This document shows, in pieces, positions 27,454-30,252 of a stretch of 64,000 nucleotides of DNA (the first letter of the stretch is position 1; the number at the start of each line of letters is the position of its first letter). A program made the position numbers and the translations under genes. Below the pieces are notes generated by a model, which was given only the letters and a program-made list of their open reading frames with translations, was not told the DNA's origin and did no database searches. The DNA is from Posidoniimonas corsicana (lineage in GTDB: Bacteria > Planctomycetota > Planctomycetia > Pirellulales > Lacipirellulaceae). The stretch is taken from NCBI RefSeq assembly GCF_007859765.1, contig NZ_SIHJ01000001.1:1570067-1634066 (forward strand), in the 5' to 3' direction.

Positions 27454-28062
27454 CTAATCGTTCGGAAGCGAATACTTGTCCCACTCTCCGTCCGGCAGGT
27501 TGGCCAGCAGCGCATCCCACGAGTCGTGCCGCTCGAGAGCCGCAACCACCTGCCGCAGCGGCCGCGCGAACACACCCGGCAGGTCGCGCTCGCCGGACAG
27601 CCTTGGAATGAATGCGAGCCGCTCCGCCGGTGGCTCGAACCGCGCGTCGATCCCGGCCTTGTTGCCGCGTGGGTCGAGTCGGAACCAGCCCGTGTCGGGC
27701 AACCACACCGCGTTGAGCCCGTGCAGGCAGCAGGGCGGACCGTGGTCGTCGATGCAGAGACGCTGGTAGCACAGTCCAGCCGGCACGCCGTTGGCCCGCA
27801 GCAGCGCGCACAGCAGGTGGCTCTTGGCGTAGCAGTATCCGGTGCGGTGCAGCAGCACCTGCGACGCCGAGCAGGTGACCGGGTTGCGCCGGTAATCGCC
27901 GCTGTGCTGGACCTCGTCACGCACGAACCGGAAGCAAGCGTCGATGGTGGCGAACGTATCCACGCCGCGTAGATCCATCGCGACCCGGGCGACATCGACG
28001 TTCGTCGAGTCAATCGACTTGCACGGATTCAGGTAAGCGGCTGCTGGGGGGCGCGGCGTCAT
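27454..28062 (-). CDS. Transglutaminase-like cysteine peptidase-fold protein
   Basis: 202 aa from the ATG at 28062. The transglutaminase-core triad is present: Cys in HRTGYCYAKSHLL, His in CLHGLNAVWLP and Asp in RLDPRGN. These enzymes act as proteases, amidases or transglutaminases; many small bacterial ones are of unknown substrate. Its N-terminus overlaps the C-terminal coding part of the upstream minus-strand membrane protein by 53 bases in another frame, implying co-transcription. An ATG at 28137 would extend it by 25 residues into the neighbour. Confidence 0.82.
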   Translation of the reverse strand: MTPRPPAAAYLNPCKSIDSTNVDVARVAMDLRGVDTFATIDACFRFVRDEVQHSGDYRRNPVTCSASQVLLHRTGYCYAKSHLLCALLRANGVPAGLCYQRLCIDDHGPPCCLHGLNAVWLPDTGWFRLDPRGNKAGIDARFEPPAERLAFIPRLSGERDLPGVFARPLRQVVAALERHDSWDALLANLPDGEWDKYSLPND

Positions 28063-28756
28063 TGGGCGGTGGCGGTTGCGGGCGGTCTGGAGGCTCTCGG
28101 TTGGAGGAAGGAGGGGCGGCCCCGCCATCCTGCCCATTGACGCCTAGCGGCCACGGCAGGTTCATCTGTGCCAGCGCGTACCGGGCTAGCCGGATGGCGA
28201 CCGCCACCAGTAGTGTTGCCGTGCTCAGGTGAAGCAGCAACACCAGGGGCAGCGCGACCCCGGCGCCGATCATCGCGAACACGACAGCGACAACCGACGT
28301 GGCCACCAATGACTGCTTGACCCCAAAGCACGCACCGCGCCGCGCCATCAGCCAGACCGCGATCCAGATCAGTGCTGTGACAACGTACGAGCACTCCCAC
28401 GAGGCCGCGCGGGTGCTCACGTGGAGGTTTATTCCGCCGGGTTGATGTAGGCCACCGAACGGCGGAACAGCAAACCCGCACCAGTGCCCATCGGCTCGTT
28501 CGGTCCAGCTAGCGGCGGGGCTCCAGTAGCCGGAGTCCACCTCAGCGCCTACGAACACCACGCCGGCACCGTTCAATGACAGGCATCCCGCGACCAGGCC
28601 GTCGTGAACCACGCGGGCGGACACACAGTTCGGGCGGCCGTGTCCAAGGACTCCGCCATGGCTGGTGATCGCAAACGCAACCGACAGGCAGATCATCCCC
28701 AGCGACCACTCCGCGAGCGTGGGGACGTAGACGGTAACGGTGCGGCCGGCGCGCAT
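28010..28756 (-). CDS. Membrane protein of unknown function
   Basis: 248 aa from the ATG at 28756 (MRAGRTVTVYVPTLAEW...). Hydrophobic segments: SLGMICLSVAFAITSHGGVLG near the start, YVVTALIWIAVWLMARRG in the middle, and a long pair (SLVATSVVAVVFAMIGAGVAL and LVLLLHLSTATLLVAVAIRLARYAL). The tail is proline-rich (REPPDRPQPPPPNDAAPPSS). No family was recognised. The open frame continues to 29260, but that upstream part lies antisense to leader A and is rejected. It overlaps the transglutaminase-like gene by 53 bases. Confidence 0.55.
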   Translation of the reverse strand: MRAGRTVTVYVPTLAEWSLGMICLSVAFAITSHGGVLGHGRPNCVSARVVHDGLVAGCLSLNGAGVVFVGAEVDSGYWSPAASWTERADGHWCGFAVPPFGGLHQPGGINLHVSTRAASWECSYVVTALIWIAVWLMARRGACFGVKQSLVATSVVAVVFAMIGAGVALPLVLLLHLSTATLLVAVAIRLARYALAQMNLPWPLGVNGQDGGAAPPSSNREPPDRPQPPPPNDAAPPSSRLPESVQVD

Positions 28757-28824
28757 AGCCGCTTTACGGCAATGCGGGGAGCTCGGTTCACAGCGTTCTA
28801 TGCCGCGCGACCGGCCTTGGGAGT

Positions 28825-28853
28825 TTGACGCCGTGGGGTGAAAGGGATAGGCT
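28825..28853 (+). promoter_or_regulatory. Promoter of leader A
   Basis: -35 TTGACG (28825-28830), a 17-base spacer and -10 TAGGCT (28848-28853). The sequence from the -10 box onward aligns with the promoter of the cold-shock gene downstream (TACGCTTCCGGTACT versus TAGGCTTTAGAGTACT), so the promoters are homologous as well as the leaders. Confidence 0.6.
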
Positions 28854-29129
28854 TTAGAGTACTTGGGAAGTAAAGCCGTAGCGAAACGCTGCGTCGGAAG
28901 CGCCGCCCTGGAGGCGGCGTAGTCCGGCACTTCTTTTCGGAATCGACCCTTCGCTGAGCGGCCCCTGAGGATCAGGCCGCTCCCCGGATGTTGCGTTGGC
29001 CGTGCTGGTCGCTGACGCAGTTTGCTCTCGCTGGCCCCCCCCTCCGCAGCGGGATTGGGTTGGCCCCGGGTTGCGGCGCCGACGGGGCGCCGGTTGTGCG
29101 ATGTCCTCCGAAACGAATGAGGCCCTGAA
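28854..29129 (+). ncRNA. Structured leader RNA, copy A (candidate new cis-regulatory motif)
   Basis: About 270-nt 5' leader of the 78-aa gene, homologous to the leader of the cold-shock gene. Conserved boxes in order: GGAAGTAAAGCCG 28866-28878; TTCTTTTCG 28931-28939; TCGACCCTTCGCTG 28943-28956; CCCCGGATGTTG 28982-28993; CAGTTTGCTCTC 29018-29029; GATTGG 29053-29058. Predicted stems: UAGCG/CGCUG around an AAA loop (28879-28891); CGCCGCC/GGCGGCG (28901-28919) inside GUCGG/CCGGC; GAGCGGCC/GGCCGCUC (28956-28982); UGCGU/ACGCA (28992-29019). Stem sequences differ from copy B but pairing is kept. A role in temperature or growth control is inference from the csp neighbour. Confidence 0.7.
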
Positions 29130-29366
29130 TTGTTGTCTCCCCCCGAGCAGAAGACGCTGGCCACCTTCCGCCAGTTCCTGATGACCCCCAACAAGATGCT
29201 CTGCTTCTGGGGCCCCGCCCTCGACCGGCACCGCGACGGGCTGGCGTTGCTGGAGAGCAAGGAGATGGTTGTGCCAGAAGGTCGGGCCGGCGGGTACTCC
29301 CTGACCGAATCGGGCTTTCAGGCGATGCGGGATGAGAGCTTCGCGGCGCCCGCAAAGCCCCGCTAG
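29130..29366 (+). CDS. Small winged-helix-like protein under leader A
   Basis: 78 aa. The start is TTG at 29130 with SD GAGG at 29119-29122; no ATG or GTG exists in frame. Codon use is strongly coding (G/C third positions). The C-terminal half, LALLESKEMVVPEGRAGGYSLTESGFQAMRD, resembles the wing and last helix of winged-helix DNA-binding proteins; the N-terminal half (TFRQFLMTPNKMLCFWGPALDRH) is unfamiliar. The function is unknown; possibly a small regulator. It shares its promoter and leader type with the cold-shock gene 400 bases downstream, so the two are likely co-regulated. Confidence 0.7.
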   Translation: MLSPPEQKTLATFRQFLMTPNKMLCFWGPALDRHRDGLALLESKEMVVPEGRAGGYSLTESGFQAMRDESFAAPAKPR

Positions 29367-29433
29367 CATCCGTTTTTTCCGCTTCTGCCGGCTGTTCGCT
29401 CCTGATGGACGGCGGCTGAACGCCGTGGGGGCA

Positions 29434-29463
29434 TTGACAGCGACCGCCCGGCTGAACTACGCT
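29434..29463 (+). promoter_or_regulatory. Promoter of leader B / cold-shock gene
   Basis: -35 TTGACA (29434-29439), an 18-base spacer and -10 TACGCT (29458-29463). The predicted transcript start is near 29470, giving a leader of almost 300 nt, unusually long as in E. coli cspA. Confidence 0.65.
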
Positions 29464-29763
29464 TCCGGTACTCAGGAAGTAAAGCCGAAGCGAGACGCTT
29501 CGCCGGCCGGGCCCTAAACCACGACGAAAGTCGACCAGCCCACGGCAATTCTTTTCGACTCGACCTTTCGCTGGACGGCTACCGATCCCTAGGACGCGCC
29601 GCCCCCGGATGTTGTTCCGCCCCGCCGGGTGCCGGACCAGTTTGCTCTCCTCGGTGACCGTCGCCCGCGTGTGAGGGCGTCGCCGATTGGTCCGGTCGTA
29701 CAGCACGGCGACGCGGGCTTCGCTCGATTCGATCTTCGATTTACGTGCTAGGAGAGCTGTGTC
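29464..29763 (+). ncRNA. Structured leader RNA, copy B, of the cold-shock gene
   Basis: Homologue of leader A with the same order of boxes: GGAAGTAAAGCCG 29475-29487; TTCTTTTCG 29549-29557; TCGACCTTTCGCTG 29560-29573; CCCCGGATGTTG 29603-29614; CAGTTTGCTCTC 29638-29649; GATTGG 29685-29690. Stems: AAGCG/CGCUU (29488-29500); a longer stem GCCG/CGGC, GGGC/GCCC capped by CGAC-GAAA-GUCG (29502-29546); GGACGGC/GCCGCCC (29573-29604, one mismatch). Box distances differ by at most 12 nt from copy A. Likely controls translation or stability of the csp mRNA. Confidence 0.72.
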
Positions 29764-29961
29764 GTGTCACAGGGTACGATCAAGAAGTTGACGGAAAAGG
29801 GTTTTGGCTTCATTCAGGGCGATCGTGGAGAGCTGTTCTTCCACCACTCGTCGGTCAGTGGCGCCAACTTTGACGACCTCCGCGAGGGGCAGTCGGTCGA
29901 GTACACCGAGGGCCAGGGCCCCAAGGGTCCCCGCGCCGAGAACGTCAAGGTGATTGGCTAA
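29764..29961 (+). CDS. Cold-shock protein (CspA family)
   Basis: 65-aa single cold-shock (OB-fold) domain that binds single-stranded RNA/DNA as a chaperone. RNP1 is KGFGFIQ and RNP2 is LFFHHSSV. The start is GTG at 29764 with SD GGAGAG (29751-29756). It is preceded by a ~300-nt structured leader and followed by a strong terminator, so it is a monocistronic unit. Whether it responds to cold or is constitutive cannot be told from the coding sequence. Confidence 0.95.
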   Translation: MSQGTIKKLTEKGFGFIQGDRGELFFHHSSVSGANFDDLREGQSVEYTEGQGPKGPRAENVKVIG

Positions 29962-29987
29962 TCTAGCCGATTCAACCGAGAAGACAC

Positions 29988-30028
29988 AAAGCCGCCCGGC
30001 GCCGCTTTGGCTGCCGGGCGGCTTTTTT
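29988..30028 (+). terminator. Rho-independent terminator of the cold-shock gene
   Basis: Stem AAAGCCGCCCGGC/GCCGGGCGGCTTT (13 pairs; GC arms at 29991-30000 and 30013-30022) followed by six T's at 30023-30028. Confidence 0.95.
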
Positions 30029-30087
30029 GATGACGCCGCCGGCGTGTGGCCGGCCGTTCCACTGCTAACCCCTTAGGGACAACCGTT

Positions 30088-30252
30088 TTGGCGAAAAATC
30101 AGAACACGTTTGAGAAGATGCGTCGCGAGCAAGAAAAGAAACGCAAGGCGAAGGAAAAGCGTGAGCGTCGCGACGCCCGCAAGGAATCTGACGGTGAGAA
30201 CACCGAGCCCGCGCAGGTGGTCGACCGCTTCGACCTGATGGGCGACTATTAG
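30088..30252 (+). CDS. Small Lys/Arg-rich protein
   Basis: 54 aa from TTG at 30088 (MAKNQNTFEKMRREQEKKRKAKEKRERRDARK...), then an acidic end with VVDRFDLMGDY. The TTG start is chosen because similar small proteins, as I recall them, begin MAKNxNTFxKRxRE and because TAGGGA lies at SD distance; an in-frame GTG at 30046 would add unrelated residues and overlap the terminator region. It is a highly charged helix likely to bind nucleic acid or ribosome; the function is unknown. Confidence 0.7.
   Translation: MAKNQNTFEKMRREQEKKRKAKEKRERRDARKESDGENTEPAQVVDRFDLMGDY

Follow-up and report, generated by a model that had tools for sequence, protein, structure and literature searches.

The window analysed here, a stretch of 64,000 nt from the planctomycete Posidoniimonas corsicana, contains two adjacent plus-strand genes, each preceded by a long leader: copy A lies upstream of a gene for a winged-helix-like protein, copy B upstream of csp, which encodes a cold-shock domain protein (Table 1). 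A preliminary description of this DNA had noted that the leaders are related, and the five sequence boxes named there are indeed found in their places in both copies, as are the two stems compared in it, the first reading UAGCG/CGCUG in A and AAGCG/CGCUU in B, the third GAGCGGCC/GGCCGCUC in A and GGACGGC/GCCGCCC in B. The relatedness proved to be of larger extent than first described, the same RNA being present in related genomes (see below). Within the window, the pattern CCCCGGATGTTG..CAGTTTGCTCTC occurs twice, versus 0.00 times in 100 shuffles, and a BLAST search of the whole genome with copy A returns only copy A itself and copy B (69% identity, E 9.5e-7). The promoters, as was also proposed, are homologous, with a -35 element TTGAC and a -10 element TANGCT in both copies, spaced by 17 nt in A and by 18 nt in B; an automatic scan for consensus promoters found 0, neither of the two passing. 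In both leaders the first domain is matched by covariance models (R2: 95.1 bits, whole-genome E 7.3e-25 for A; 105.7 bits, E 5.5e-28 for B), both sequences being part of the training set.

Table 1. Features of the two leaders and their genes (positions in the window)
Feature	Position	Strand	Remarks
Promoter of copy A	-35 TTGACG 28825-28830; -10 TAGGCT 28848-28853	+	from sequence
Leader A	28859-29129	+	upstream of winged-helix-like gene
A: domain 1	28859-29034	+	matched by R1, R2 and R3
A: P1 5' strand	28865-28871	+	partner 29024-29029; weaker in A than in B
A: P2 hairpin	28877-28893	+	CGTAGCG-AAA-CGCTGCG
A: conserved pyrimidine-rich box	28931-28953	+	TTCTTTTCGGAATCGACCCTTCG
A: P4 hairpin	28956-28982	+	GAGCGGCC/GGCCGCTC
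A: P5 hairpin	28991-29020	+	TTGCGT/ACGCAG
A: box of P5 and P1 3' strands	29018-29029	+	CAGTTTGCTCTC
Winged-helix-like protein gene	29130-29366	+	78 aa, TTG start
Promoter of copy B	-35 TTGACA 29434-29439; -10 TACGCT 29458-29463	+	from sequence
Leader B	29468-29763	+	upstream of csp
B: domain 1	29468-29654	+	covariance-model match
B: P1 5' strand	29474-29480	+	AGGAAGT; partner 29644-29651
B: P2 hairpin	29486-29502	+	CGAAGCG-AGA-CGCTTCG
B: conserved pyrimidine-rich box	29549-29570	+	TTCTTTTCGACTCGACCTTTCG
B: P4 hairpin	29573-29604	+	GGACGGC/GCCGCCC
B: P5 hairpin	29612-29640	+	TTGTTCC/GGACCAG
B: P1 3' strand	29644-29651	+	GCTCTCCT; exact complement of Shine-Dalgarno stretch 29750-29757
B: P6 hairpin	29662-29679	+	CGCCC/GGGCG; domain 2
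B: P8 helix	29702-29749	+	AGCACG (29702-29707)/CGTGCT (29744-29749); directly 5' of Shine-Dalgarno
B: Shine-Dalgarno stretch	29750-29757	+	AGGAGAGC
csp	29764-29961	+	cold-shock domain protein, 65 aa, GTG start; PF00313, E 2.4e-18
Terminator-like hairpin behind csp	30001-30022	+	one of 3 such sites in the stretch; shuffles lead one to expect 1.5
Small basic protein gene	30088-30252	+	MAKNQNTFEK...; neighbour of csp

Homologs of the winged-helix-like protein are encoded in 35 of 196 genomes of the order. Its AlphaFold model (4 sequences; mean pLDDT 81.8) shows the element order H-E-H-E-E-H, which is that of a winged helix; the sequence matched nothing in Pfam at 0.001, nor did the model match anything in the PDB by Foldseek at E <= 0.001. 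The 16 best of the weak Foldseek matches (E 0.009-0.06) are eukaryotic ribosome chains, which we presume to be protein eS10, and bacterial winged-helix regulators are among the next; the protein may act on translation. A second copy, 49% identical, is present elsewhere in the window's genome (G000:C2:564168-564368) and carries no leader. The same genome has two csp genes, only one of them with the leader.

Concerning the gene neighbourhood, a winged-helix gene is located close to csp in three of the 80 csp loci that were collected from genome contigs (L087, L102, L117) and also in genome G036; since the two genes co-occur elsewhere, leader copy A joins genes that are already found together. 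The small basic protein, whose window copy matched no Pfam or NCBIfam family, is encoded close to csp, on either side, in 10 of the 80 loci. Very basic small proteins (AKNxNTFEKxRRExEKKRKA..) are encoded downstream of csp in the window and in the loci L183 (2100-2266) and L184 (2122-2286). On the other side, leader A of the sister genome directly follows a methyltransferase-like gene (L014, reverse complement 1501-1820), presumably methylguanine-methyltransferase-like to go by its motif; in the window (27454-28765) the two are separated by about 1.4 kb, in which a transglutaminase-like gene (PF01841) is located.

Distribution of the RNA in Pirellulales

Searching related genomes with covariance models, as the preliminary description had proposed, yielded further copies, and these sit before csp genes. 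The sister genome G001, the other member of the genus that was found, contains both leaders in the same order and with the same two genes behind them; boxes and promoter are kept, while the hairpins between the boxes vary freely in sequence and length. Upstream of csp in other related genomes the same layout can be read from the sequence in diverged form. Model R1 was built from eight sequences and R2 from 15, and the whole-genome searches were blind to genes. Among 43 genomes of the family, taken as Lacipirellulaceae by inference from the csp coordinates of G029, which coincide with those in Botrimarina hoheduenensis (L126), R1 gave 17 matches at E <= 1e-3, of which 15 lie upstream of csp in the same orientation and two are the A copies; four of the 17 are in G015, and nine were outside the training set (sister B, G031, three in G015, one in G027, G019, G007 and G004). 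Five weaker places had E values of 0.01-0.9. The RNA is counted in 11 of the 43 genomes (10 strongly, one weakly), csp in 38. The weak match, in G004 (L019 1054-1231; 25 bits with R1), lies 270 nt before csp as compared with about 100 nt in the others and keeps the pyrimidine box, which suggests an expanded or decaying form of the leader.

On the level of the order (396 genomes), R2 found 18 places with at least 46 bits, the next one scoring 23.9; 16 of these precede csp, the other two being the A copies of the window's genus. Three of the 18 were not in the training set (sister B, G055 and G036) and all three precede csp, G055 and G036 belonging to a second family of Pirellulales in which two of seven genomes carry the RNA. 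A third model, R3, in which the P5 columns are set two positions off and which was used for the second-family and order searches only, returned the same 18 places with at least 70 bits, 17 of them from its own training set. When the search with R2 was widened to the class (397 genomes), no match beyond these two families scored more than 24.4 bits. The best match of the order search that is not before csp (G328; 23.9 bits with R2, 29.1 with R3) was rejected, as it lies inside an open frame.

The collections of loci gave a corresponding picture. Across the 80 csp loci the RNA is found only in L077, the G019 locus (71.3 bits with R2), the next score being 18.4 bits at a site not before csp, and loose box patterns likewise point to L077 only. 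Round the winged-helix homologs (30 loci), R2 stayed at 9 bits or below except in G000, G001 and G036, and at the G036 locus the RNA belongs to csp; apart from the window's genome and its sister, no genome showed a copy upstream of the winged-helix gene. DNA BLAST against 59 relatives retrieved the sister genome only, besides a match of 23 nt in G002, which on inspection by eye falls within a coding region, and the exact two-box pattern occurs in just one of the 43 family genomes, the two boxes having a different sequence in the sister genome.

Taken together, it is highly probable that these leaders constitute an RNA family, the structured leader of csp genes in Pirellulales, and the reading as a structured cis-regulatory RNA, originally put forward for the window, is supported by a csp leader family with copies across two families of this order. 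It should also be noted that two csp leaders without a model match, L020 and L024, contain by eye the P8-like pairs GGCACG/CGTGCC and GGTACG/CGTGCC before the Shine-Dalgarno sequence; domain 2 (described below) may be older or wider in distribution than domain 1.

Architecture of the leader and covariation

The leader is a structured cis-acting 5' RNA composed of domain 1 (about 155-255 nt) and domain 2 (102-115 nt). Comparison of the members places the closing helix P1, RRGRNAGC(GA)/(UU)GCUNYCYY, a few bases after the -10 element, and within it the hairpins P2 to P5 surround the conserved pyrimidine-rich box. In P2, CUUCGC pairs with GCGAAG or, alternatively, with a GCGAG repeat; P3 is variable in length and is followed by the box UUCUUSU..CUCGRCCYUUCG, after which come the variable hairpin P4 (mean z -1.85 over 18 leaders) and P5, UUGNYCC..GGNUCAG (mean z -2.34 over 18). 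In the csp leaders, conserved structure extends beyond the boxes in the 3' direction as far as the start codon: domain 2 consists of P6 and then P8 (NGCACG/CGUGCN), which ends 0-1 nt 5' of the Shine-Dalgarno sequence. In all 16 csp leaders the distance to the start codon is 17-21 nt from the first nucleotide of the P8 3' strand and 102-115 nt from the end of P1 (103 nt in L173). The outer pair of P8 is U-A, A-U or G-C in nine of the 16 and unpaired in seven. The P6 segment is no more stable than shuffled sequences (mean z -0.66 over 16), and P6 alone is 64% paired in the domain 2 alignment A11, in our reading because the length of the hairpin changes. No P8-like pair could be seen by eye in the A copies.

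The preliminary description had regarded the boxes as single-stranded in appearance. In part they are paired, two of them being helix halves. In P5, the UUG of CCCCGGATGTTG pairs with the CAG of CAGTTTGCTCTC, and the A copy of the sister genome has CAG..CUG where other copies read UUG..CAG; this was the first compensatory change seen, and it identifies the two boxes as partly the two sides of P5. In P1, UUUGCUCUC pairs with the first box.

Covariation is present for whole sets of helices beyond shuffled, slid and tree-based controls, while no single column pair reaches significance. Pairing is kept through two-sided changes in P1, P5, P6 and P8. From the structure-blind alignment A8, RNAalifold predicted P1, a P2-type hairpin in its repeat form and P5 unaided, with two-sided changes at 10 of 23 pairs. 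For this structure, 92.1% of the cells in A8 are paired, compared with 87.0% in shuffled and 36-52% in slid alignments (89.6% with the other form of P2), and nine of 22 pairs have two-sided changes; none of 500 shuffles was as high on four measures, and five were on a fifth. In domain 2 (A11), 77.0% of the cells are paired versus 70.2% shuffled and 32-65% slid, eight of 13 pairs having two-sided changes, and the number of shuffles as high on the five measures was 0, 29, 0, 12 and 0 of 500.

In a phylogenetic null that preserves the tree and the changes per column (1000 simulations), the paired cells of P1, P2 and P5 together amount to 83.3%, against a simulated mean of 67.6% and a maximum of 78.2% (p 0.001). 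Taken singly, the share of paired cells gave p 0.014 for P1, 0.017 for P2 and 0.002 for P5, and in domain 2 p 0.027 for P8, 0.010 for P6 and 0.002 for both; a hairpin at the start codon was not significant (p 0.08). Counting cells with two-sided changes, domain 1 as a whole stands out (p 0.012), P2 alone (p 0.31) and P5 alone (p 0.21) do not, and the number of pairs with two-sided changes in domain 1 is not unusual (p 0.22). In an all-pairs G-test with simulated null on 16-18 sequences no column pair was significant, the best having E 2.2. Both the all-pairs and the tree-based tests drop columns with more than half gaps; they include sister B, which was left out of the alignments A4, A8, A9 and A11 for its long inserts, and the pair counts exclude L019 (the 25-bit G004 match) as well as L020 and L024, which are divergent. 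As the structures were proposed from these same sequences, more independent support comes from the RNAalifold prediction and from those members that were discovered once R1 had been built.

Proposed mode of action and alternative readings

On balance, the data are best explained, with somewhat better than even confidence, by a structured csp leader that controls translation by means of a P1 toggle and whose domain 1 has been duplicated. That the leader acts on csp translation is itself likely, and it probably sets how well the csp messenger is translated; no terminator-like site was found on the plus strand in leader A or B, which makes translational control likelier than attenuation. Judged from the promoter, the transcript would start at, or just 5' of, P1, and the leader would govern the initiation of csp translation. 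The proposed toggle is the 3' strand of P1 (UUUGCUCUCYU): as long as it is paired with the P1 5' strand, the ribosome site would be free, and once released it would mask the Shine-Dalgarno sequence, to which it is an exact 8-nt complement in the window and strongly complementary in the second family. The strand that would free it is AGCGAAG; as there are two GCGA-type repeats with which its partner CUUCGC can pair, this strand could be part of hairpin P2 or of a P1 that is extended. Going by the gene, the likeliest input would be cold, the Csp level, or both. A duplication in the window's genus would have placed domain 1 and its promoter before the small winged-helix gene, thereby placing this gene under the control that csp has.

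The complementarity on which the toggle is based is uneven. In leader B, the P1 3' strand GCUCUCCU complements the Shine-Dalgarno stretch AGGAGAGC exactly and ranks first among the 267 windows of the leader; in sister B it ranks 2 of 334, and in the second family 1 of 260 (L183) and 1 of 266 (L184). In the other 12 of the 16 csp leaders it ranks only 5-105 of about 230-275 windows, so that the toggle between P1 and the Shine-Dalgarno sequence is not general. We therefore consider the switch, well supported in four of 16 leaders and not proven general, a tentative candidate for one form of exclusive pairing. A further pairing, between the 5' strand of P2 and the pyrimidine box, is strong in seven of 18 leaders (-13.6 to -16.5 kcal/mol, rank 1-13 of 92-135) and weaker in the other 11, and is mentioned here as an idea only.

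The best-known structured leaders among cold-shock genes are those of E. coli, and the one described here is another leader of this known kind, the RNA itself having no match in Rfam 15. Like the enterobacterial cspA leader it is a long structured 5' leader of a gene with a cold-shock domain, for which a role in translation is plausible; unlike it, it has a multi-hairpin domain closed by P1 and the helix P8 before the Shine-Dalgarno sequence. At the gathering thresholds of Rfam 15 nothing was found in the window or in 15 loci of relatives, and at E <= 5 the leaders (28700-30100) gave eight chance-like matches (best E 0.24), the cspA thermoregulator, which we take to be RF01766, not being among them. 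The cold-box element of cspA is TGACGTACAGA; with up to three mismatches it has 85 matches in the window where 98 are expected, which is not above chance, and in the leaders there is a single match, with three mismatches, in B (29694-29704) and none in A. This agrees with the earlier statement that the leader does not resemble the cspA thermosensor, and the resemblance to the E. coli leader is most likely one of role and not of homology.

It is against this background that a pure thermosensor, in which cold alone refolds the leader to a translatable form as in E. coli cspA, has to be weighed. The identity of the gene and the competing pairings (an extended P1 with one form of P2 versus the other form of P2) speak in its favour; thermodynamic folding of 16 leaders from 5 to 37 degrees, in which single-sequence predictions often miss P1, revealed no consistent trend in the exposure of the ribosome site or of P1, and we hold this explanation to be rather unlikely. 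RNA thermometers of the ROSE and FourU types are short hairpins over the Shine-Dalgarno sequence; temperature would act at the ribosome site here as well, but no conserved hairpin over it was found and no such Rfam family matches. Possible, if doubtful, is an autoregulation by Csp, which would bind the pyrimidine-rich boxes (UUCUUSU..CUCGRCCYUUCG and UUUGCUCUCUU) as putative sites and melt or stabilise the leader, tuning its own synthesis, with the duplicated leader bringing the winged-helix gene under the level of Csp; the most conserved stretches are indeed pyrimidine-rich, and E. coli CspA is described in PMC9947658 as binding its own mRNA and stimulating its translation, but one of the boxes is already accounted for by pairing in P1.

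A static leader, which would not switch at all and whose stable fold would serve to protect the mRNA or to present the ribosome site, would agree with the conserved helices and with a toggle that is not general; conserved boxes that look unpaired, together with competing repeats, would appear to exceed the needs of a stabiliser, and we consider it unlikely. The modular build, hairpins of variable length around invariant boxes, and the recurrence of domain 1 before another gene in the window's genus, there by eye without a P8-like pair, would suit a metabolite or ion riboswitch with domain 1 as aptamer and domain 2 as expression platform. One trait of riboswitches, a conserved covarying fold of the 5' leader together with boxes that are not part of helices, is present, at the level of helix sets and not of single pairs; yet the genes behind the 18 strong matches, 16 csp and two copies of one winged-helix gene, name no ligand, and to us this reading seems quite improbable from the sequences. 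It is hardly credible that no RNA is involved and that the similarity reflects regulator sites in the DNA or promoter DNA that was duplicated recently: in favour, A and B are adjacent paralogs and share their promoters, but two-sided changes preserve pairing, members occur in two families and the lengths of the hairpins between the boxes vary freely.

The csp leader came to light as orphan motifs do in comparative genomics, through boxes that are conserved and helices that covary upstream of a single family of genes. The main text of PMC2864571, in which the term 'csp' is absent, presents 104 candidate motifs and lists Rhodopirellula-1 for Planctomycetes; for the csp leader, Rfam 15 as a whole gave no match. 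A description of the RNA was not found in the open-licence papers searched or in Rfam 15, a 2017 survey of 224 candidate RNAs being covered through Rfam only. It would accordingly be a planctomycete regulatory RNA family without a match in Rfam 15, the mechanism being one that we infer. In a lineage far from E. coli, genes of this kind are preceded by an RNA unrelated to the one known there, and it becomes testable how many times bacteria have arrived at a cold-shock leader by different ways. More speculatively, and with a low probability in our view, domain 1 could be a portable sensor of its own class (for cold, Csp or a ligand) that evolved in Pirellulales around a strand-exchange core AGCGA-GCGAGA-CUUCGC, passing one strand among P1, P2 and the Shine-Dalgarno sequence, and that was copied together with its promoter, bringing a winged-helix regulator into one regulon. 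A natural experiment is built into this system, as in one genus a different gene is preceded by the sensing domain while the ribosome-site domain is apparently missing there.
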